A stretch of DNA of 59,678 nucleotides from an uncultured Actinomycetes bacterium (GTDB taxonomy: Bacteria; Actinomycetota; Thermoleophilia; RBG-16-64-13): positions 1 through 59,678 of the forward strand of contig CAIQPS010000093.1 in the NCBI GenBank assembly GCA_903873715.1. The letters run 5' to 3'. Each line of letters begins with the position of its first letter. Position 1 is the first letter of the stretch. The translations under genes were made by a program, and so were the position numbers. Below, in pieces: positions 43,119 to 59,425 of the stretch. The notes under the pieces are model-generated. The model ran no database searches, was not told where the DNA came from, and was given only the letters and a program-made list of their open reading frames with translations.

Positions 43119-44552
43119 ATGGGCTCATTCGATCCGGCCGATTTCGAGGTCGTCTACCCCGGTGTGTACGAGGGACGCGAGGCCGAGCTCGTGCCGGCGT
43201 ACTTCGCCGCCAACAAGGCCATAGAGGACAGGGGTGAGATCGATGCCAAGGCCCTGGCTGCCGGCACGCTGCCCGCTGGCACTCCCGGCGTCGGGCCCAA
43301 GCTCGAGGTCACCGAGGCCATGGTCCGCTACAACAACGAGAAGTACGACCCGGACAACCCGCTGTTGAACGACGCGGACTACGCACGGGCCGCGGGCTAC
43401 GAGAACATCCTGGCCATGCCCTGCTACGGCGCCCACGACGACACCTTCATGGTGCCCTACCCGCCGGAAGCCCGGGACACCCTCCTGGTGTCGCAGCTCA
43501 ACCACAGCGTCACCAACTACCGGCCGGTCTACCCCGGCGACACCCTCTATCTCGTCGCCGACAAACGTTGGATCTACGACCGCACCCCGCAGGAAGGCTC
43601 CGTCTACCGGCACGTGACCCTCGCGTCGTGGGGCTCGGTCTACAACCAGCGCGGCGAGAAGGTGAACGACACCACCTGGCGGGTCACCGAGAGCGAGAAG
43701 ATCTACAAGCCGGGCAAGCGCCCCGAGAAGATGGGCTTCCCCGAGATGTGGGAGGCGCCCGACTGGATGGCCCGGCCCGCTCACGTCTACACCGACGCCG
43801 ACTGGGACTTCATCAAGGGTGTGTGGGCCAAGGAAGTGCGCCGCGGCGCCGAACCGCTCTACTGGGAAGACGTCAATGTCGGCGACCAGCCCACCTGGAC
43901 CGCCGACGGCCCCATCGAGGAGTCCCTCGCCCCGACCGCTCCTTACGGCCTGGGAACCGGTGGTAGCCGCACCATGCGCAAGGAGATCATGGACCCGGCG
44001 ACGTTCGCCACGATGATCCGCGGCGAGGACGGCATCTATCGCCTTCCCAACAAGGAAGACTACGTACCGGCCGTGCCGGATGGCGTGAAGCCGTTCTTCA
44101 TGGTCGACCCGAACGATGACGGCACCGACGCCGCGGTCGACACCCAGGACATCCACAAGGCCGGCGCCGGCCGCGCCGCCCTCATCAACTTCCTGGGCCG
44201 CGACCTGGCCGTCCGCCACATCAACAACTGGATGGGCGACAAGGGCTGGCTGTACCAGATCCGCTGGGGCATCATGCCGGCCGAGGCCCACGCCGCCCTC
44301 GGCAAGATCGTGCCCAAGGACCCGGGATGCGAGTACTTCCTGGGCAAGGTGCCGTTCATGGCCGGCAAGCACACGCTCGCGCACGGCCTCACCAGCGACC
44401 TGGCCCTAGTCAAGTCCTACGTCTACGACAAGTTCGTGCGCTCCGGAGAGTTCTACGTCTCCCTCGCCTGGTGGATCGAGACCATCGAAGGCGACATCTG
44501 GCTCGAGGGCGACGCCACCGTCAAACTGCCGTCGGCTCGCGCCGGCGAATAG
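43119..44552 (+). CDS. MaoC/hot-dog-fold dehydratase-like protein
   Basis: The 477-residue product looks like a double hot-dog protein of the MaoC-like hydratase group. The segment YDPDNPLLNDADYARAAG (about residues 75-92) aligns with the hydratase motif DxNPxHxD, but the catalytic His is Leu here. The second half contains FLGRDLAVRHINNWMGDKGWL and WWIETIEGDIWLEGDATV. Family members add or remove water at the C2=C3 of acyl-CoA. With the missing His the activity may differ. It is followed after 8 bp by a zinc alcohol dehydrogenase and then a MarR regulator, forming one operon. Confidence 0.72.
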   Translation: MGSFDPADFEVVYPGVYEGREAELVPAYFAANKAIEDRGEIDAKALAAGTLPAGTPGVGPKLEVTEAMVRYNNEKYDPDNPLLNDADYARAAGYENILAMPCYGAHDDTFMVPYPPEARDTLLVSQLNHSVTNYRPVYPGDTLYLVADKRWIYDRTPQEGSVYRHVTLASWGSVYNQRGEKVNDTTWRVTESEKIYKPGKRPEKMGFPEMWEAPDWMARPAHVYTDADWDFIKGVWAKEVRRGAEPLYWEDVNVGDQPTWTADGPIEESLAPTAPYGLGTGGSRTMRKEIMDPATFATMIRGEDGIYRLPNKEDYVPAVPDGVKPFFMVDPNDDGTDAAVDTQDIHKAGAGRAALINFLGRDLAVRHINNWMGDKGWLYQIRWGIMPAEAHAALGKIVPKDPGCEYFLGKVPFMAGKHTLAHGLTSDLALVKSYVYDKFVRSGEFYVSLAWWIETIEGDIWLEGDATVKLPSARAGE

Positions 44553-45589: not shown

Positions 45590-46098
45590 TCCCCGTGTCC
45601 CCGGATAGAGGCGAGGGCTGGCAGCCCCTCCCGTTCCCCGATTCCATCGAGGGTGTCCATCCGGACACCCTCCAGGCCTTTCTGGCCTTCAACAAGGTGG
45701 TCAACAGCTTCGAGCAGTTGATGGTCAAGGACCTCTCTGAGGAGGACGCGCAGCCGAGTCAGATCACCTGTCTGCGCCTCCTTACCGAGCGCGACGGCAT
45801 CTGCCAGCGGGAGATCGCGGATGCGTTGCGCATCTCCCGGGCCCGGGTCACCGCCATCGTGCAGGCCCTGGAGAAGGCGGGGGCCATCCGCCGGGAGCGG
45901 GACGAGAACGACGGGCGGCTCACCCGGGTGTTCGTGACCGAAGCCGGCCGGGAGCTCGACCGGCAGAAGGGCCATATCCGGGAGGCACGCATCAACCAGA
46001 TCTTCGCCGACATGTCGACCGAGGAGAGGGTGGAACTGCGCCGCCGCCTTGACGACCTGACGGACCGCATCCAGAACGTCCTGCGGTCGAGCGAGTAG
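45586..46098 (+). CDS. MarR-family transcriptional regulator
   Basis: The 170-residue product has a MarR winged helix: ITCLRLLTERDGICQREIADALRISRARVTAIVQALEKAGAIRRERDENDGRLTRVFVTEAG (about residues 60-125, split). Dimerisation helices flank it. MarR repressors usually bind phenolic or CoA-thioester ligands. The TTG start overlaps the dehydrogenase stop (a GTG at 45595 is the alternative). It is last in the MaoC-dehydrogenase operon and may control that operon. Confidence 0.92.
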   Translation: MIPVSPDRGEGWQPLPFPDSIEGVHPDTLQAFLAFNKVVNSFEQLMVKDLSEEDAQPSQITCLRLLTERDGICQREIADALRISRARVTAIVQALEKAGAIRRERDENDGRLTRVFVTEAGRELDRQKGHIREARINQIFADMSTEERVELRRRLDDLTDRIQNVLRSSE

Positions 46099-46192: not shown

Positions 46193-46240
46193 TTGACACC
46201 TCGCCGGACCGCTGCCAGAATCGGTAGAGCGAGCGCTCTA
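46193..46240 (+). promoter_or_regulatory. Promoter and TetR-type operator of the SDR-cupin-SnoaL operon
   Basis: TTGACA (46193-46198), 17 bases, CAGAAT (46216-46221), 3 bases, then the dyad TAGAGCGAGCGCTCTA (46225-46240; 7-bp arms, 2-bp spacer). The same arrangement occurs at 50561-50608 before tetR. A repressor bound there would cover the transcription start. Confidence 0.85.
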
Positions 46241-46302
46241 TCTAGGGAAGCACGAGCCCTCCAGAGTGCCGGCTGCAGGAGACTTCAGAAAGGACTACGC
46301 TG

Positions 46303-47070
46303 ATGGCGACGGGTATCACGGGCAAGGTGGCGCTGGTGACCGGGGGCGCGTCCGGTATCGGCCGGGTGACGGCTCTGGCCCTGGCCGCCGAGGGGGCCAA
46401 AGTGGCCATCGTCACCGGCAGGAGCGTGACGGCGGCGGCTCGCGTCGTCGAAGAGATCGAGGCGCTGGGCGGCGAGGCCACCTATGTCCAGTGCGACGTC
46501 ACCGACGAGCGCCAGGTGGAAGCCATGGTCAAGGCCGTGGCCGACCGGTTCGGCGCTCTCGACATCGCCTTCAACAACGCCGGCGTGGGCCCCGATGGGG
46601 TCACCATCCCGTTCAGCCATCTGGTGGACCTGGCCGAAGCCGATTGGGACACCGTGCTCGACACCAACCTCAAGGGCGTGTTCCTCTGCATGAAGCACGA
46701 ACTCCGGCAGATGCGGCCGCAGTGCTCCGGGGTCATCGTCAACACGGCGTCCACGGGCGGTCTCAAGATGATGCCAGGCTTCGGCGCCTACGGTCCCAGC
46801 AAGTCCGCCGTGATGTCGCTCACCCGGTTGGCCGCCGCCGAGAACAAGGACAAGGGTATCCGCGTGAACGTCGTCGCCCCGGGCCCCACCAAGGGCACCG
46901 GCATGATGGACCGCATGCTCAGCTGCACCCCGGAGGGCGACGGCCCGCCGGTGCATCTCATGGGGACCCCCGAGGACATCGCTCGCGTGGTCGTGTGGTT
47001 GTGCTCGGACGAAGCCTCCTTCGTCACCGGCAACGTCATCTCCGTCGACGGTGGACTCGACGTCTCCTGA
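46303..47070 (+). CDS. Short-chain dehydrogenase/reductase
   Basis: The 255-residue product is a classical SDR: cofactor loop TGGASGIG (about residues 14-21), NNAG, catalytic Ser in NTASTGG, and YGPSK (Tyr/Lys pair), ending FVTGNVISVDGGLD. It interconverts a hydroxyl and a keto group using NAD(P). It is the first gene of an operon with a cupin and an NTF2-like protein under the TAGAGCG operator. Substrate unknown. Confidence 0.94.
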   Translation: MATGITGKVALVTGGASGIGRVTALALAAEGAKVAIVTGRSVTAAARVVEEIEALGGEATYVQCDVTDERQVEAMVKAVADRFGALDIAFNNAGVGPDGVTIPFSHLVDLAEADWDTVLDTNLKGVFLCMKHELRQMRPQCSGVIVNTASTGGLKMMPGFGAYGPSKSAVMSLTRLAAAENKDKGIRVNVVAPGPTKGTGMMDRMLSCTPEGDGPPVHLMGTPEDIARVVVWLCSDEASFVTGNVISVDGGLDVS

Positions 47071-47113
47071 CCTCGGGCCGATAGACCAACCCTGGAATGA
47101 AAGGCGCCTACCG

Positions 47114-47554
47114 ATGAGTGGATCCGCATACGCCAAGTACGTCATCACCCAGCCGATCGTCGAGGAGCACGGCTACGAGGTCAAGGACGGTCCGGAGACC
47201 ATCGCTTCGATGGCCTATCTCGACGGGGGTGTCGTTCCCGGGGCCTTCTATTGCGAGACTCACTGGTTCTACGGCCCCACCAAGTACTCGCCCAAGGAGC
47301 ACACCCACGATTTCGACGAGACGCTGGCGTTCTTCGGGGGCGATCCGCACGACCCGATGAACCTGTGCGGCGAGGTCCACCTGTCGATCGACGGCGAGAG
47401 ACTGGTGCTCACGGAAAGTTGCCTGGTGTACATACCGGCGGGCACCAAGCACTGCCCGATGAACATCATGAGGGCCGACAAACCGATCTTCCACTTCTCG
47501 ATGGGCAACGCCACCAAGGCCTATGAACGGGAAGCCGGGAACGCGAACGACTGA
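47114..47554 (+). CDS. Cupin-domain protein
   Basis: The 146-residue product is a small single-domain cupin. Motif 1 is KEHTHDFDETLAFFGG (HxH plus Glu) and motif 2 includes CLVYIPAGTKHCPM (His), giving a plausible 3-His/1-Glu metal site. Similar proteins are found next to anaerobic catabolic genes without a known reaction. The ATG at 47114 gives a natural N-terminus; the frame opens earlier at 47051. It lies 43 bp after the SDR gene. Confidence 0.82.
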   Translation: MSGSAYAKYVITQPIVEEHGYEVKDGPETIASMAYLDGGVVPGAFYCETHWFYGPTKYSPKEHTHDFDETLAFFGGDPHDPMNLCGEVHLSIDGERLVLTESCLVYIPAGTKHCPMNIMRADKPIFHFSMGNATKAYEREAGNAND

Positions 47555-47578
47555 TCACGACAGAGAAAGGCTGAACGG

Positions 47579-48076
47579 ATGGACATGGAAACCCGCCTCC
47601 AAGAGTTGGAGGCAACTGTCAAGGCCCTGCAGGCTCGTGTGCAGGTGACCGAGGACATCAACGACATCAAGCAGTGCCAGTGGACGTATCTCAACGCACT
47701 GATGGCCACCGAGTGGGACACCTGCGCGGACTGCTTCTCCGAGAACGCCTTGGTGGACGTGTACCTGCACGACCCCGTGCGCGGCCGCGAGAACATCCGC
47801 GCCTGGTTCAAGGAAGAGTTGTCGGTCACGCATTCGGGCGCCGAAGGCGACGTCTGCATCCACCCGATCATCGAGGTGGACGGCGACCACGCCACCGGGA
47901 ACTGGCTGCTCTACATGATGTACTTCTACAAGCGCACCGGCCAGTCGATGTTCTGGGTCCAGGGCTACTACGACCAGGAATACGTGCGCGAGAACGGCAA
48001 GTGGAAGATCTCGGTGATGCGCTGGCACGAGACCATCGGCCTGCCTGGCGGCGGCCCGCCCACCGGCCTCTGGTGA
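47579..48076 (+). CDS. SnoaL/NTF2-like protein, possible dehydratase
   Basis: The 165-residue product starts with a coiled helix (METRLQELEATVKALQARV) followed by an NTF2-like cone fold (IKQCQWTYLNALMATEWDTCADCFSENALVDVY split; GRENIRAWFKEEL; CIHPIIEVDGDHATGNWLLYM). The layout and N-terminal helix are like bile-acid 7-alpha-dehydratase BaiE and scytalone dehydratase relatives, with a His near residue 101 where such enzymes have a catalytic His. This is inferred by eye; no alignment was run. It is the last gene of the operon. Confidence 0.78.
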   Translation: MDMETRLQELEATVKALQARVQVTEDINDIKQCQWTYLNALMATEWDTCADCFSENALVDVYLHDPVRGRENIRAWFKEELSVTHSGAEGDVCIHPIIEVDGDHATGNWLLYMMYFYKRTGQSMFWVQGYYDQEYVRENGKWKISVMRWHETIGLPGGGPPTGLW

Positions 48077-48113
48077 GCCGGGGAGCCTGACCCCCCAGAC
48101 CTCGTTCGTGATG

Positions 48114-48138
48114 CCCGCCGGCCGCTCAGGCCGGCGGG
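48114..48138 (+). terminator. Terminator of the SDR-cupin-SnoaL operon
   Basis: CCCGCCGGCC (48114-48123), loop GCTCA, GGCCGGCGGG (48129-48138), followed by TCTGTCTT. The loop contains the stop codon of the convergent gene at 48126, so it sits exactly between two converging transcripts. Confidence 0.7.
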
Positions 48139-49112
48139 TCTGTCTTCACCACGGTGCGCAGCTCTTCCGCAGCGGCTTCGGCCTCGGCGATGGTCCGGTC
48201 CACCACTTCCCGCACGGTGGGGATGTCGTGGATGAGCCCCACCGTCTGGCCGAGGGTGACGGCGCCCGTCGTCGCCAGACAGCCTTCGAGCATGGCCTTC
48301 TGCATGGACGCCCCGTCGACGAGGGCCAGCAGCTCCTCGGCGCTCGCCCCGTTGCGCTCCAACTCCTGGGCGCGCAGGGTCACCTCCGTCTTGGCCACCC
48401 GCATGGAGTTCTTGAGGGTGCGCTCCACCAACATGGTGTCCGTCTCGTGGGCCTCCACGATCCAACGCTTGACCTCGCCGTGCAGGGGGCTCTCCTTGGT
48501 CGCCAGGAAGCGCGTGCCCATGCAGACCCCATCAGCGCCGAGCGCCAGCATCGCCACGAGGCCCCGGCCGTCCGCGATGCCCCCGGCCGGGATCACCGGC
48601 ACGTCGACCGCGTGGGCCAGGGCCTGGATCTGGACGAGCAGGCTCACGTCCTCCTCGCCGGGATGCCCGCCGCTCTCGTAGCCCACGATAGTTATCGCGT
48701 CGGCGCCGAGCCCCGCCACCTTGACGCCGTCCCGGACCCGGGCGACCTTGTGCATGAACACCGCCCCGCCGTCCTTGATGCGGGCTGCGAACTCGGCCGG
48801 GCTGCGCCCCGAAGTCTCGATGACCCGCACCCCTTCGTCGAGCAGCACGTCGATGAACCCGTCGATATCCACCGGCTTGGTGCCGGGGAAGAGGTTGATG
48901 TTGGCTCCGAACGGCCGGTCGGTGAGTCCTTTCACCTGCCGCACCGCCTCCCGGAGCTGTTCCACCGTCCGGTAGCCGGTGGTGGAGAGCAGGCCCAGGG
49001 CGCCGGCCTCGGCCACGGCGGCCACCAGTGCGGGCCCCGTGGTGAGGTGCATGGTGCCGCAGACGATCGGATGGCGGACGCCGGTGAGTCTGGTCAGCCT
49101 TGTCTCGATCAT
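48126..49112 (-). CDS. Nitronate monooxygenase/FabK-like flavoprotein
   Basis: The 328-residue product is a TIM-barrel FMN protein of the nitronate monooxygenase (2-nitropropane dioxygenase) family. Typical segments are HPIVCGTM near the start, GADAITIVGYESGGHPG (about residues 134-150), VPVIPAGGIADGRGLVAMLALGADGVCMGTRFL split at about 170-203 for the phosphate site, and a SPLH/ESP-like segment. FabK-type enoyl reductases share the fold, so reduction of an unsaturated CoA ester is also possible. AAGGA lies before the ATG. It is the only minus-strand gene in the catabolic region. Confidence 0.85.
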   Translation of the reverse strand: MIETRLTRLTGVRHPIVCGTMHLTTGPALVAAVAEAGALGLLSTTGYRTVEQLREAVRQVKGLTDRPFGANINLFPGTKPVDIDGFIDVLLDEGVRVIETSGRSPAEFAARIKDGGAVFMHKVARVRDGVKVAGLGADAITIVGYESGGHPGEEDVSLLVQIQALAHAVDVPVIPAGGIADGRGLVAMLALGADGVCMGTRFLATKESPLHGEVKRWIVEAHETDTMLVERTLKNSMRVAKTEVTLRAQELERNGASAEELLALVDGASMQKAMLEGCLATTGAVTLGQTVGLIHDIPTVREVVDRTIAEAEAAAEELRTVVKTDPPA

Positions 49113-49219
49113 TGGGAGCCGTCCTTGGTCTGGTGGTGTGTCGAGAGCATAGCCAAGTCGACGGGAAGAATCCTACAATCGTGTGGTCGGATCAGAGACA
49201 GACCAGGAGGTCGGCCAAC

Positions 49220-50464
49220 ATGGCACTAGGCAAATACGCGGTGGACTACGAGGAGAGGATCGACTACCCTCGTCTTCGCGCCGAACGGCTTGCACGCGCC
49301 AAGGCCGAGATCGACAAGGCCGGGCTCGGTGCCATCGTAACCTGGGACGAGGCGAACATCCGCTACCTGACCGGCTACTATCTGACGACGCCGGTAAGAC
49401 CTCTCGAGGCGCAGTTCTGCTTTTGCCCCCGCAATGGCGGCCCGCACCTGGTCGGCGGCAACGACCAGGAAGGCCTCATCACCCGCATGCCCTGGATGGA
49501 GGGCCGCATCCACCCGCCTGCCGGCATCGCCAAGATCGCGGCGTTCAGACCGGACGACCCGGTCGTCAAGCGGGTGGTCGACCAGATCTTCTCCTTCATG
49601 GTGGAGCACGGCGTCGAGAAGGAACCTCTGGGCATCGACGGCACCACGCTCTCGTACATCTATGCCGAGGCCTTCAAGGCCAGGGGTGTCGAGGTGGTGC
49701 ACGCCAAGCCGGTGATGGACCATGCCCGCATGATCAAGACCAAGGACGAGATCGAACTGATGCGCATCAGTTGCGCCAACTCGGAGAAGGCCTTTGCGGC
49801 CATCGTCGATGCCATCCGTCCGGGCATCCGGGAATGCGACCTGGTGGGCATCGGCATCAAGGCCCTTTACGAGGAAGGTTGCGACCACACCGAGGACCTG
49901 GTCTGCTGCTCCGGCTTCAACACCAACCCCTACGGCTGGTCCTTCACCGACAAGCCGCTCCAAGTGGGCGACCTGGTCTACATCGACGTGGACGGTGCGT
50001 CCTATCAGGGCTACAAGTGCTGCGTCTACAGGACGTTCTGCGTGGGCAAGGCCAGTTCTGAACAGAAGGCCGTCTACGAAGAGTGCCGCGCCATGCTCTA
50101 CGCCGGCATGAACACCATCAAAGACGGCTCCACCGACTGGCAGGTGCTGGACAAGTGGCCCGCCAGTCCCGAGTACTGGGGCCACAAGACGTGGGGCGAG
50201 GTCGGGCCGTACGCGCTCGGCCACGGACTGGGACTCACCCTGCACGACCGCCCGTTCTTCAACCGCATGAACCAGGTAGCCGGCGTGCCCCAGCAGACCT
50301 TCAGGGAAGGCATGGTGCTGGCCGTCGAGACCTACGCGGGCCAGAAAGGCGGCAAGTTCGGCGTCCGGCTCGAAGAGAACATCCTGGTGACCAAGGAAGG
50401 CTACGAGCGGCTCAGCCTGTGGCCCATCGAAGAACTCATGGAGTGCTGGCTGCCGTACAGATAG
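49220..50464 (+). CDS. M24-family (creatinase/prolidase-like) protein with a substituted metal ligand
   Basis: The 414-residue product has a creatinase N-domain and a pita-bread C-domain. Expected metal ligands are D256 (VYIDVDG), H335 (LGHGLGL), E370 (AVETYAG) and E385 (RLEENI). The second Asp, which normally sits 5 residues before the Phe of RTF, is Cys (C268, in YKCCVYRTF). The protein may therefore hold one metal, or none as in creatinase, or act as a lyase or hydrolase on a small molecule rather than a peptidase. AGGAGG precedes the ATG at 49220. TACAAT at 49174 is a -10 candidate. Confidence 0.82.
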   Translation: MALGKYAVDYEERIDYPRLRAERLARAKAEIDKAGLGAIVTWDEANIRYLTGYYLTTPVRPLEAQFCFCPRNGGPHLVGGNDQEGLITRMPWMEGRIHPPAGIAKIAAFRPDDPVVKRVVDQIFSFMVEHGVEKEPLGIDGTTLSYIYAEAFKARGVEVVHAKPVMDHARMIKTKDEIELMRISCANSEKAFAAIVDAIRPGIRECDLVGIGIKALYEEGCDHTEDLVCCSGFNTNPYGWSFTDKPLQVGDLVYIDVDGASYQGYKCCVYRTFCVGKASSEQKAVYEECRAMLYAGMNTIKDGSTDWQVLDKWPASPEYWGHKTWGEVGPYALGHGLGLTLHDRPFFNRMNQVAGVPQQTFREGMVLAVETYAGQKGGKFGVRLEENILVTKEGYERLSLWPIEELMECWLPYR

Positions 50465-50483
50465 AGACCGACTCCGAGACCGA

Positions 50484-50509
50484 CCCGGCGGGGGCGGGTA
50501 TCCGCCGGG
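50484..50509 (+). terminator. GC hairpin after the M24-family gene
   Basis: CCCGGCGG (50484-50491) and CCGCCGGG (50502-50509) form an 8-bp stem 20 bases after the stop codon. No U-tract is visible. Confidence 0.35.
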
Positions 50510-50560
50510 CGGGTCGCCGCCGTGGCCGTCCGGCCCCGCCGGTGGCCGTCCTCCGTTCAC

Positions 50561-50608
50561 TTGACAGCACCCTCTCCGCTTGGCAGAATGCGTAGAGCGA
50601 GCGCTCTA
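50561..50608 (+). promoter_or_regulatory. Promoter and TetR-type operator of the tetR-beta-oxidation operon
   Basis: TTGACA (50561-50566), 17 bases, CAGAAT (50584-50589), 3 bases, then TAGAGCGAGCGCTCTA (50593-50608). The dyad and all spacings are the same as at 46193-46240. Its place before the tetR gene suggests autoregulation and identifies the likely binding protein. Confidence 0.85.
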
Positions 50609-50669: not shown

Positions 50670-51383
50670 GTGGCCAAGAAGATGATAGAGGACGAGACGC
50701 CAGAGGTCATGAACACCACTCAGCGCCACCTTGAAGAGATGCAGTTGCGGGTAGCCGAGCACGACGTGCCCGGCGGCCCGGCCGACCGCGAACTCACCGA
50801 GATGAAGCAACGTCAGATCGTCGAGCGTGCCAGCGCCATCCTCTTCGAGAAGGGTTTCCACGGCACGTCCATCCGCGATATCGCGCAGGCCTGCGACATG
50901 TCCATGGGCCAGCTCTATCACTACATCTCGTCCAAGGACGACATCCTGTTCCTGATGCACCTCTACAGCCAGGAGCAGTGGTACCGCCGTCTGGCCGATG
51001 CCGGCTTCGAACAGATCACCGACCCGGTGGCCAAGCTCGAGCACGGCGTCCGTACCTCCATCCGCCACATCTCCGAGAACCGGGCTCTCTACCAGTTCAT
51101 CTTCACCGAGAGCAAGTACATGGACCGCGAGCACCTGCAGAAGGCGCTCGATCTGGACGACCGGAACGTGGTGGGCTTCTACTGCCACCTTCTCTCCGAG
51201 CTCCCCGGGCGGTCCTGCGCCGATCAGGAGCAGCATCTGGCCGCCAGTATCGTCGCGTACATCGCCACCTTCCTGGCCATGCGTGGCTGGAACGTGGACC
51301 TTCACGACCAGGCCGCCTACGACACGGCGGTGGAGACCCTTGTCGACTTCATTTTCCGCGGGCTCGGCATCGAGCGCGGATAG
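50670..51383 (+). CDS. TetR-family transcriptional regulator
   Basis: The 237-residue product has an N-terminal arm of about 40 residues and then a TetR helix-turn-helix: KQRQIVERASAILFEKGFHGTSIRDIAQACDMSMGQLYHYISSKDDIL (split, about residues 45-92). The C-terminal ligand domain is helical. FadR-like TetR repressors of beta-oxidation genes respond to acyl-CoA; a CoA thioester is the likely inducer here (inference). The GTG at 50670 is chosen for its strong GGGGAGGA site; the frame extends upstream to 50580 but would run through the operator. It heads the downstream catabolic operon. Confidence 0.93.
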   Translation: MAKKMIEDETPEVMNTTQRHLEEMQLRVAEHDVPGGPADRELTEMKQRQIVERASAILFEKGFHGTSIRDIAQACDMSMGQLYHYISSKDDILFLMHLYSQEQWYRRLADAGFEQITDPVAKLEHGVRTSIRHISENRALYQFIFTESKYMDREHLQKALDLDDRNVVGFYCHLLSELPGRSCADQEQHLAASIVAYIATFLAMRGWNVDLHDQAAYDTAVETLVDFIFRGLGIERG

Positions 51384-53789: not shown

Positions 53790-53814
53790 CCTGCCGGACC
53801 GCAAAGGAGTTCTG

Positions 53815-54996
53815 ATGAAAGAAGCAGTCGTAGTCAGTGCGGTCCGGGTGGCCACCGGCAAAGCGCCGAAGGGCATGTACCGCACCGTCCGCCCCGACGA
53901 CCTCGGGGTGCTGGTGATAAAAGCGGCGCTCGAGCGGGCGCCCGGCCTGGACCCGGCGGAAGTCGACGACCTCATCATGGGGTGCGCCTTCCCTGAAGCC
54001 GAGCAGGGGCTCAACGTGGGCCGTAACGCCTGGCTGCAGGCCGGGCTGCCCATCTCCGTGCCGGGAGTCACCGTCAACCGGTTCTGCTCCTCCGGCGCGC
54101 AGGCGGTGGGTTACGCGGGCATGCAGATCATGTCCGGCATGGCCGAAGTGATGATGGCGGGCGGCGTCGAGTCGATGTCGCGGGTGCCGGGCGGGGGCAA
54201 CAAGCCCATGTTCGGCGAGGCCCTCATGGACGCCAGCCCCGACGCCTACCTGAGCATGGGCCTCACGGCCGAGAAGGTGGCCGAGCAGTACAACGTCTCC
54301 CGCGAAGACCAGGACGTCTTCGCCGCCCGTAGCCACGACCGCTCCCTGGCGGCCATCGACTCCGGGCGCTTCAACGACGAGATCGTCCCCGTGCCCGTGA
54401 CCCACTACAAGCCGGGCCCCGACGGCACCATCGTCGCAGAGACCAAGATCATGACCGTGGACGAGGGCCCGCGGCGGGGCACCACCCCGGAGACGCTGGC
54501 CAAACTCAAGCCGGTGTTCAAGAAGAACGGCTCCGTGACCGCCGGCAACTCCTCGCAGACCAGCGACGGCGCCGGCATGACCGTGATGATGACCGCCGAG
54601 AAGGCGTCGGCGCTGGGGCTCAAGCCGCTGGCCCGTTTCGTCAGCTTCGCCTGCGGTGGCGTGGACCCGGGCGTCATGGGCGTCGGCCCCATCATGGGCA
54701 TCCCGAAGGCCTGCAAGCTCGCCGGCATCAAGCCGAGCGACCTCGACCTCATCGAACTGAACGAGGCGTTCGCCAGCCAGGCGCTGGCCGTGTGCCGGTA
54801 CCTGGACCTCAACACCGACATCGTGAACGTCAACGGCGGCGCGATCTCTCTGGGCCATCCTCTTGGGGCGACGGGAGCCAAACTCACGGCCACCCTGCTC
54901 CACGAGATGCAGAAGCGGCCCGAGACCAAGCACGGCGCCGTGACGATGTGCGTGGCCGGGGGCATCGGCGCCTGCGCCATCTTCGAGCGGCTGTAA
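53815..54996 (+). CDS. Acetyl-CoA acyltransferase (thiolase)
   Basis: This enzyme cleaves 3-ketoacyl-CoA with CoA. The 393-residue product has the nucleophile C91 in NRFCSSGAQAV, the NEAF motif, GGAISLGHPLGATGAK with the catalytic His, and the final Cys in MCVAGGIGACAIFE (the usual CxGGGxG has Ala for the first Gly). AAAGGAG lies before the ATG at 53815. It follows the dehydrogenase/hydratase by 25 bp. Confidence 0.95.
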   Translation: MKEAVVVSAVRVATGKAPKGMYRTVRPDDLGVLVIKAALERAPGLDPAEVDDLIMGCAFPEAEQGLNVGRNAWLQAGLPISVPGVTVNRFCSSGAQAVGYAGMQIMSGMAEVMMAGGVESMSRVPGGGNKPMFGEALMDASPDAYLSMGLTAEKVAEQYNVSREDQDVFAARSHDRSLAAIDSGRFNDEIVPVPVTHYKPGPDGTIVAETKIMTVDEGPRRGTTPETLAKLKPVFKKNGSVTAGNSSQTSDGAGMTVMMTAEKASALGLKPLARFVSFACGGVDPGVMGVGPIMGIPKACKLAGIKPSDLDLIELNEAFASQALAVCRYLDLNTDIVNVNGGAISLGHPLGATGAKLTATLLHEMQKRPETKHGAVTMCVAGGIGACAIFERL

Positions 54997-55066
54997 CACC
55001 CAAGCAAGCCAGGCGCCGGGGGGCGGCGCGATATACAGGGGACCTACGAGACAAAGTGAGGCAGTG

Positions 55067-55843
55067 ATGGCGGATCTCTTCAATCTGGACGGCAAAGTGG
55101 CGGTCGTCGTCGGTGGCGGCGGGGGCATCGGCAAGGGCCTGGCCCTCGGTCTCGCCCGCTACGGCGCCAACGTGGTGCTGTGCAGCCGTAACCTCGAGAA
55201 ACTGCAGGTCGTGGCGGACGAGATGTCGGCCGACCCGGAAGTCAAGAACCCGGTGAAGGCCTACCAGATGGACGCCACCGACGAGGCTAGCGTCAAGGCG
55301 GCCTGCGAGAAGATCGTGGCCGAGATGGGCACCGTCGACATCCTGGTGAACTCCCAGGGCCTCAACATCAAGGAGCCGTTCGACTCCATCATCACCGATA
55401 ACTGGGATTCGCTCTTCGCCCAGAACGTCCGCAGCCTCATGCTCACCTGCCGGGAGTTCGGCAAGGTCATGATGGCCAAGAACAAGGGCAAGATCATCAA
55501 CATCGGTTCCGTCGCCGGCGACCGCGGCGTGCCGCTGGCCGGCAACGTGGGCTACTGCGCGAGCAAGTCCGCCGTGCACAACTTCACCCGCATGCTGGCC
55601 TTCGAATGGGCCAAGTACAACATCAACGTGAACGCCATCGGCCCGTCGGTGATCTTTACCCCGGGCATGAAGGCCGCCCTGCCGCCGGAAGTGCTGGCCG
55701 GCGCCACCGCTCTGCACCCGCTGGGCCGCGTGGCCGATGCCGAAGACCTGATGGGCACCGTGGTCTACATGGCCTCGGCCGCTTCGGACTTCCTCACCGG
55801 TCAGATCGTGTTGGTCGACGGCGGCCGCAGCTGCAAGGCTTAG
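55067..55843 (+). CDS. Short-chain dehydrogenase/reductase
   Basis: The 258-residue product is a classical SDR: cofactor loop VGGGGGIGKG (an unusually Gly-rich variant of TGxxxGIG), NSQG in place of NNAG, catalytic Ser in NIGSVAG, Y-x3-K in YCASKSAV, and the end LTGQIVLVDGG. It oxidises or reduces a hydroxyl/keto pair of a pathway intermediate. AGTGAGG lies before the ATG at 55067 (a GTG 3 bases earlier is possible). Confidence 0.93.
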   Translation: MADLFNLDGKVAVVVGGGGGIGKGLALGLARYGANVVLCSRNLEKLQVVADEMSADPEVKNPVKAYQMDATDEASVKAACEKIVAEMGTVDILVNSQGLNIKEPFDSIITDNWDSLFAQNVRSLMLTCREFGKVMMAKNKGKIINIGSVAGDRGVPLAGNVGYCASKSAVHNFTRMLAFEWAKYNINVNAIGPSVIFTPGMKAALPPEVLAGATALHPLGRVADAEDLMGTVVYMASAASDFLTGQIVLVDGGRSCKA

Positions 55844-55853
55844 GCGGCGCGGG

Positions 55854-56795
55854 ATGCAGGTCACAGACGTCAAGAAAGTAGCGGTGTTCGGGGCTGGGAC
55901 CATGGGCCCCGGCCTCGCCCTCGTCTTCTCCATGTGCGGCCACAAGGTCTCCCTCTATTCGCGCAAGCAGGAGACCATCGACAAGGCCATCGCCACCGCC
56001 AAGGGCGCCCTGGCGACCCTGGTGGCCCACGGCAGCATGACTCTGGCCGAGGCAGACCGGGCCCTGGCCCTCGTCCATCCCACCACCTCGGTGGCGGAAG
56101 CCGGTACCGATGCCGACTTCGTGATGGAGACCATCGCCGAGAACAAGGACGCCAAGACGGCTCTGTACGCGGAACTCGACGGTATCTGCCCGGCGCACAC
56201 CGTCTTCGCCAGCAACACCTCGAGCCTCAACGTGTTCGAGCTGGTGCCGGCCGCCCGGCAGAAGAACATGGTGGTGGCGCACTTCTTCGCGCCGGCCCAC
56301 ATCATCCCGCTGGCGGAAGTGGTGGGCGGCCCCGAGACCACGGCCGAGACCATCGCCTTCACCGTGGACTTCATGAAGGCCTGCAACAAGACCCCCGTGG
56401 TCATGAAGAAGTTCGGCCCGGGCTTCATCGTCAACCGCATCCAGCGCGCCATCGGCGAGACCTGCATGGACATGGTGCAGGAAGGCCTGGTGGAGCCGGA
56501 GCAGATCGACGACGCCATCAAGGCCACCCTGGGCATCCGCCTGCCGATCGTGGGCGTCATGCAGACCTTCGACTTCCAGGGCCTGGACATGCTCCTCGCC
56601 TACCAGAAGAACGTGGGCAAGGTCTACTCCTTCGTGGAGGACCGCGTGAACGCCGGGCGCAACGGGGCCAAATCGGGCGCCGGTATCTACGACTACCAGG
56701 GCCGCAGCGAGGCGGAGATCCTCGAGAAACGCGACGAGCTGTACCTCAAGATGATCGACTACCTCACCGAGATCGGCGCTTTCGAGCCGGTGTGA
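55854..56795 (+). CDS. 3-hydroxyacyl-CoA (3-hydroxybutyryl-CoA) dehydrogenase
   Basis: The 313-residue product is a stand-alone NAD-dependent hydroxyacyl-CoA dehydrogenase: VAVFGAGTMGPGLALVFSMCGH at the NAD site, ASNTSSLNV, VVAHFFAPAHIIPLAEVV with the catalytic His, and GPGFIVNRIQRAI. It duplicates the activity of the fusion protein upstream, perhaps for a branched or short-chain substrate. It lies 10 bp after the SDR gene. Confidence 0.93.
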   Translation: MQVTDVKKVAVFGAGTMGPGLALVFSMCGHKVSLYSRKQETIDKAIATAKGALATLVAHGSMTLAEADRALALVHPTTSVAEAGTDADFVMETIAENKDAKTALYAELDGICPAHTVFASNTSSLNVFELVPAARQKNMVVAHFFAPAHIIPLAEVVGGPETTAETIAFTVDFMKACNKTPVVMKKFGPGFIVNRIQRAIGETCMDMVQEGLVEPEQIDDAIKATLGIRLPIVGVMQTFDFQGLDMLLAYQKNVGKVYSFVEDRVNAGRNGAKSGAGIYDYQGRSEAEILEKRDELYLKMIDYLTEIGAFEPV

Positions 56796-59002: not shown

Positions 59003-59425
59003 ATGCTCAAGGCGACGTTCGACGACTACATCGCCCGGTTCAACGCGCGTGATCCCGGTGCGTTCGAGGACTACATCGATCCCAAGTGCGTGGTGCTCAA
59101 CGGCACGCTCGTGATCAACGGCGCCGAAGGGATGAAAGCCCACTACGCGCGGATCTGGAGGTCCTGCTCCGAGGAACTGCACGTCGAGCGCTTCGTGAGC
59201 GACGACGACAGCCTCGCCATCCAGATGTGGACGCATTTCGCGGTCCAGAAGGACGACGAAGATTCCCCGTTCGGCCCGGTGAAGGCCGGAGAATGCTTCG
59301 ACTACCACGGCATCATCATGTACCAGCTCGTGAACAACAAGTTCACCGACATCAAGGTGTCGTACCTCAGCTTCAGCCGGACCGACCTCGACGGCAACAC
59401 GATCGAGCTCGGGATCCCGCACTAG
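59003..59425 (+). CDS. SnoaL/NTF2-like protein
   Basis: The 140-residue product is a second NTF2-like fold protein: FDDYIARFNARDPGAFEDYID, a central sheet, and FDYHGIIMYQLVNNKFTDIKVSYLSF at the end. Such proteins are often isomerases or dehydratases with a His/Asp pair in a cone-shaped pocket. It is clearly different from the one at 47579. It belongs to the tetR operon, 40 bp after the flavin reductase. Confidence 0.82.
   Translation: MLKATFDDYIARFNARDPGAFEDYIDPKCVVLNGTLVINGAEGMKAHYARIWRSCSEELHVERFVSDDDSLAIQMWTHFAVQKDDEDSPFGPVKAGECFDYHGIIMYQLVNNKFTDIKVSYLSFSRTDLDGNTIELGIPH

Follow-up and report, generated by a model that had tools for sequence, protein, structure and literature searches.

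The window analysed here, 59,678 nucleotides from an uncultured Actinomycetes bacterium (Thermoleophilia; RBG-16-64-13; GCA_903873715.1, contig CAIQPS010000093.1, positions 1-59,678, forward strand), contains two operons whose promoters carry the same 16-bp sequence, TAGAGCGAGCGCTCTA, and this raises the question of which protein reads that element and how far its control extends. We consider it very likely that TAGAGCGAGCGCTCTA serves as operator for the TetR-family protein encoded at 50670-51383, whose dimer would block both window operons and two transporter operons elsewhere in the genome until released by a pathway intermediate, probably an acyl-CoA. Read directly from the sequence, both sites take the form TTGACA-N17-CAGAAT-N3-TAGAGCGAGCGCTCTA-TC (46193-46240 and 50561-50608), followed by leaders of 62 nt from the dyad to the start codon of the SDR gene and of 61 nt to that of tetR. 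The hexamers, spacing, dyad and coordinates given in an earlier note on this DNA proved exact to the base, and the same 16-mer does stand at both sites. It falls short of a perfect palindrome: the symmetry is broken by its centre, AG, which is oriented towards the gene at every site in this bacterial family. The flanks are unrelated, as had also been claimed, with 31/100 identical positions upstream and 15/60 downstream, and the spacers have diverged too; the 18 shared bases and the promoter hexamers are therefore not a recently duplicated segment.

The element is rare. Besides the two sites, no place in the window matches TAGAGCGNNCGCTCTA at two mismatches or fewer, and a search of all 169 contigs of the 3.33-Mb genome, with the reversed pattern as control, gives four exact copies against none for the control. 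At two mismatches the control outnumbers the pattern (34 vs 16), so that only near-exact sites are meaningful; two-mismatch sites were accordingly not used. The earlier note had itself named occurrence at many unrelated genes as a finding that would count against it, and the four exact copies are instead the two in the window and two ahead of genes for the substrate-binding proteins of Liv/Urt-type ABC transporters, in clusters (C24 and C168) that both also hold SnoaL genes. On C24 (45014, minus strand) the arrangement is TTGACA-N17-TCTAAT-N15-dyad-TC, about 0.1 kb 5' of the gene for a lipoprotein-like substrate-binding protein, which is followed by LivH-, LivM-, LivG- and LivF-like open reading frames and a SnoaL-like one. 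On C168 (32451) the dyad lies 66 bp 5' of the gene for the second Liv/Urt-type substrate-binding protein, in an operon whose last genes encode SnoaL and a flavoprotein (in both clusters, Liv and SnoaL are names read from the translations, except for the C168 binding protein). All four copies precede catabolic or uptake operons, each with its AG centre facing the gene, and the regulon would therefore join uptake and degradation. The single regulon that the note had drawn around the window operons is hence supported but was too small, because the exact copies outside the window precede transporter operons, at least two of which would belong to it.

Our comparison set comprised 60 relatives and the own genome (61 genomes, 18 in the same family). 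Among the 60 relatives the TetR occurs in 7, the exact dyad in 9 and both in 6, and all genomes sharing the two fall in one family. There the TetR orthologues are 55-74% identical with an invariant recognition helix, MSMGQLYHYISSKDDIL, and 21 sites give the consensus TAGAGCGAGCGCTCTATC (the 16-mer plus TC) with only two variant sites; most of the 21 lie 2-6 bp beyond a TTGACA/NNNAAT pair whose spacing is 17-18 bp. G011 was scored as lacking the dyad, yet directly 5' of its tetR stands a site with two mismatches, behind TTGACG-N18-TACAAC; in G004, which has the dyad and no TetR, the contig stops inside fadB, just before the tetR position of relatives; G031 belongs to a different family, and its dyad lacks the AG centre. 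Across 396 genomes of the phylum the TetR (E<1e-30) was found in the own genome only, and the dyad there and in two others, each with one copy whose centre differs. We took as chance the exact dyads in G031 and G222, and TCGAGCGCTCGCTCTA in G020 and G054, which are single or few copies with other centres or without promoters. In G015, masked bases (N) lie within tetR (L046:8714-9469), and its C-terminal half alone is readable.

A further scan covered 84,980 species genomes and used the helix GQLYHYIS as seed, so that helix conservation among its matches is partly a matter of construction; upstream DNA was not a selection criterion. Of the 21 homologues that it returned, 5 come from actinobacterial metagenome-assembled genomes (MAGs); the other 16, at 37-47% identity, belong to Sporomusa and Desulfobacterota-type MAGs. 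The Desulfobacterota-type proteins are 38-47% identical, and 10 of 11 of their genes have a dyad 28-129 bp upstream with 0-2 mismatches to GAGCGNNCGCTC, a match equalled in 0-16 of 500 dinucleotide shuffles. These dyads are of the type GAGCGNN(C/T)G(C/A)TC, usually stand behind TTGACA, and are mostly reversed in orientation (TCGAGCGCTYGCTCTA); no convincing dyad lies upstream of the homologue in L062, where the match includes a stop codon. In Sporomusa, where the homologues are 37-40% identical, GA(A/G)CGAGCGTTC is found 0.2-0.45 kb 3' of tetR and again, following TTGACG-N17-type promoters, at further operons in the cluster, and genome-wide most symmetric AG-centred copies fall in the tetR clusters. 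Among the products encoded in these clusters are an HpaB-family enzyme and a hydroxyacyl-CoA dehydrogenase (HCDH); in Sporomusa sp. KB1, the HpaB, HCDH and GntP-permease operons carry GAACGAGCGTTC. We see in this strong comparative evidence that the two window sites are switches of the nearby TetR; regulator and site keep company in no fewer than three bacterial phyla. Because TetR and dyad co-occur in the family, in Desulfobacterota and in Sporomusa, the window TetR is by far the best candidate for the protein that binds the dyad, and the suggestion of the earlier note that it is the likely repressor gains support from a dyad that travels with it across genomes and phyla.

Two further copies with one mismatch, both TCGAGCGCTCGCTCTA (the Desulfobacterota form), lie 5' of an HpaB-family gene on C80 (L007, C80:4669-4684) and 5' of a cyclase-family gene on C132 (L009, C132:11455-11470). 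They share the surroundings TCAATCGAGCGCTCGCTCTA-N15-(T/C)ATAAT, and TCAA precedes both. Sites with one mismatch are about as frequent as chance would give, and this form is found in no family relative; the C80 site can be argued to be real because its HpaB-family protein is 71% identical to the product of an HpaB gene that carries the operator in the Sporomusa cluster, and the C80 gene possibly belongs to the regulon. At both loci the dyad lies upstream of the -10 box, at the -35 position, a placement that would suit either repression or activation and that suggests another mode of control. It is possible, though on balance rather doubtful, that we are looking at an ancient and undescribed TetR-operator family common to Actinomycetota, Desulfobacterota and Sporomusa and serving anaerobic CoA-dependent degradation, with two geometries: one a start-site repressor, the other at -35, always 15 bp from the -10 box (C80 and C132), possibly an activator.

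The window TetR has the N-terminal helix-turn-helix domain (Pfam PF00440, 41.9 bits, cut-off 24), and its predicted model (AlphaFold2, pLDDT 87, pTM 0.83) is all-helical, with 11 helices and a C-terminal ligand domain. The best Foldseek matches are TetR proteins, namely PfmR, AibR with isovaleryl-CoA, FadR, KstR2 and SaFadR, at TM 0.5-0.76 and 16-27% identity to acyl-CoA sensors, a range generic for TetR-family regulators. A palindromic operator at the own promoter, a feature of this family, has its counterpart in the dyad 61 bp before tetR, which relatives conserve ahead of the tetR gene or operon. The protein does not reach the FadR, FasR, BetI or RutR equivalogs (best NCBIfam scores 28-39 bits vs cut-offs of 118-368), and there is no close paralogue in the own genome (next best E 3e-12).

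We infer binding by this protein, repression and autoregulation, as well as the class of ligand and a transported substrate, along the following lines. The TetR dimer would sit on TAGAGCGAGCGCTCTA just 3' of the -10 box, over the expected start, the classic place for repression by steric block, and would shut off the SDR-cupin-SnoaL operon, the two Liv/Urt-type ABC-transporter operons (C24 and C168) and the tetR-fadB-thiolase-SDR-HCDH-OYE-SnoaL operon (OYE, Old Yellow Enzyme), the last of these amounting to autoregulation. The transported substrate would be taken up and activated, and an intermediate, probably an acyl-CoA, at which the fold matches and the operon content hint, would bind the C-terminal domain and free TetR from the DNA, inducing uptake and beta-oxidation-like degradation together.

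With the own genome counted (TetR in 8, dyad in 10 and both in 7 of 61) the Fisher p is 2e-6, or 1e-5 excluding the own genome, which speaks for this proposal. Several observations weigh against it. The Fisher values are too strong because related genomes are not independent, and the association is weaker within the 18 family genomes. In the fragmented assembly of G006 the dyad stands before a C168-type operon, and neither TetR nor FadB is present. As a -10 box CAGAAT is weak, and the C168 site has no clear sigma-70 promoter and adjoins another regulator, a MerR-TetR hybrid.

That hybrid, or else the MarR protein encoded at 45592-46098, just 5' of operon 1, might be what binds the dyad. MarR adjoins site 1 both here and in G001, and the hybrid adjoins the C168 and G006 sites, with hybrid-family proteins present in 9/9 dyad-bearing family genomes. 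However, in G015, G017, G008 and G011 the MarR relatives lie at a distance from the dyads or on different contigs, and in the dyad-bearing G005 and G010 there is no MarR match at 1e-30, while hybrid homologues outside G006 are distant paralogues away from dyads, and G016 has two of them and no dyad. Neither protein explains the dyad 5' of distant Desulfobacterota tetR genes. Co-occurrence and position hence disfavour both as regulators of the dyad, and we regard this explanation as improbable. The hybrid (L006:7618-8550) seems to join an N-terminal MerR-like to a C-terminal TetR-like part, and its multi-copy protein family is confined, among the 61 genomes, to this bacterial family. A still slimmer chance attaches to the dyad acting in RNA, or as a promoter or start element, rather than as a protein operator: it spans the predicted start with an AG centre of fixed orientation within the family, but its distance to the -10 box ranges from 2 to 15 bp, its orientation is reversed in Desulfobacterota, the candidate sites C80 and C132 are upstream of the -10 box, and the 2-nt loop is too small to close a full RNA stem. 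It is hardly credible that the two sites, identical as they are in 16-mer and spacing, stem from a recent duplication or a mobile repeat and share no regulation, given diverged spacer and flanks around 18 bases that are retained in 8 other family genomes.

The proposed TetR switch has well-studied counterparts. KstR2 of mycobacteria and rhodococci is an autoregulated TetR repressor of a compact CoA-thioester catabolic cluster, acting through some three palindromes close to the gene that encodes it (PMC3068626). The likeness lies in a TetR that would control its own gene and a cluster for CoA-thioester catabolism, and in the fold match (4w97/4w1u); in contrast, the KstR2 operator is AnCAAGnnCTTGnT, of 14 bp, its pathway is that of the cholesterol rings, and identity in the structural alignment is ~16-18%. 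KstR, an autoregulated TetR repressor of lipid catabolism whose palindrome overlaps the putative -10 region (PMC1995591), shares the autoregulatory logic but has the operator TnnAACnnGTTnnA and a much larger regulon, with 16-31 further sites (PMC1995591). AibR (PDB 5k7f/5k7h/5k7z), the second-best fold match, was solved with isovaleryl-CoA and operator DNA; it is about 21% identical and serves another pathway. PfmR of Thermus thermophilus (PDB 3vpr) and FadR of Bacillus/Thermus, which match best in both sequence and fold, regulate acyl-CoA degradation but are about 18-27% identical, with no sign of orthology to the window TetR. The core motif, as six 12-mers, was found in no open-access bacterial-regulation paper, most subscription papers and regulon databases being outside that search, and the TetR-operator pair apparently is, for now, an undescribed member of a well-known type of switch. 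We note that regulator, operator and gene set are now testable for a catabolic pathway, so far uncharacterised, of a family of uncultured actinobacteria, that the search for the substrate is narrowed because the operator ties transporters to enzymes, and that the conservation of the operator in cultivable Sporomusa provides a bench system. That operator and recognition helix are both nearly invariant despite deep divergence would also make a clean case of regulator-site conservation.

Table 1. Features of the two operons and their promoters in the window.
Feature	Position	Strand	Basis or remark
Operon 1 promoter, sigma-70-like	46193-46221	+	TTGACA 46193-46198, 17-bp spacer, CAGAAT 46216-46221
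Operator 1 (putative), TAGAGCGAGCGCTCTA then TC	46225-46240	+	Over expected transcription start; rarity in window and genome
SDR oxidoreductase, first gene of operon 1	46303-47070	+	Pfam/NCBIfam
Cupin-like protein, operon 1	47114-47554	+	Pfam Cupin_2 23.6 bits, under cut-off 27.2
SnoaL_4 protein, operon 1	47579-48076	+	Orthologues 64-76% identical, adjoin same dyad in relatives
M24 peptidase/creatinase-like protein	49220-50464	+	5' of dyad here; within tetR operon in most relatives
Operon 2 promoter, sigma-70-like	50561-50589	+	TTGACA 50561-50566, 17-bp spacer, CAGAAT 50584-50589
Operator 2 (putative), TAGAGCGAGCGCTCTA then TC	50593-50608	+	61 bp 5' of tetR start codon
TetR-family regulator, 237 aa, GTG start, proposed repressor	50670-51383	+	Recognition helix MSMGQLYHYISSKDDIL
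FadB-like 3-hydroxyacyl-CoA dehydrogenase/crotonase, 793 aa	51408-53789	+	Pfam/NCBIfam
Acetyl-CoA C-acyltransferase (thiolase)	53806-54996	+	Pfam/NCBIfam
Second SDR oxidoreductase	55064-55843	+	Pfam/NCBIfam
3-hydroxyacyl-CoA dehydrogenase	55854-56795	+	Pfam/NCBIfam
Old-Yellow-Enzyme-type FMN/FAD oxidoreductase, 705 aa	56845-58962	+	Kin of BaiCD and mycofactocin OYE_2; far under equivalog cut-offs
SnoaL_2 protein, last operon 2 gene in window	59003-59425	+	Pfam/NCBIfam

The gene content of the operons (Table 1) agrees with the SDR-cupin-SnoaL and tetR-thiolase-dehydrogenase-OYE lists given earlier, except that the second list was incomplete, lacking the 793-aa FadB-like protein, an SDR and a SnoaL protein. 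Together they would encode a CoA-dependent, beta-oxidation-like degradation pathway, and the assignment stops there because no operon protein is at an equivalog cut-off that names a substrate. The bile-acid pathway of BaiCD was rejected, the OYE protein scoring 281.7 bits on NF041087 against a cut-off of 825. The M24-like gene (49220-50464) is not obviously under control of the dyad here. Its product, the best-conserved cluster member in relatives (70-88% identity), bears a weak likeness to the dimethylsulfoniopropionate (DMSP) lyase DddP, and may be a pathway enzyme rather than a peptidase. Further upstream, 43119-44552 encodes a 477-aa protein with no Pfam/NCBIfam match, which is 73% identical in G001, beside the same alcohol dehydrogenase (ADH) and MarR genes.

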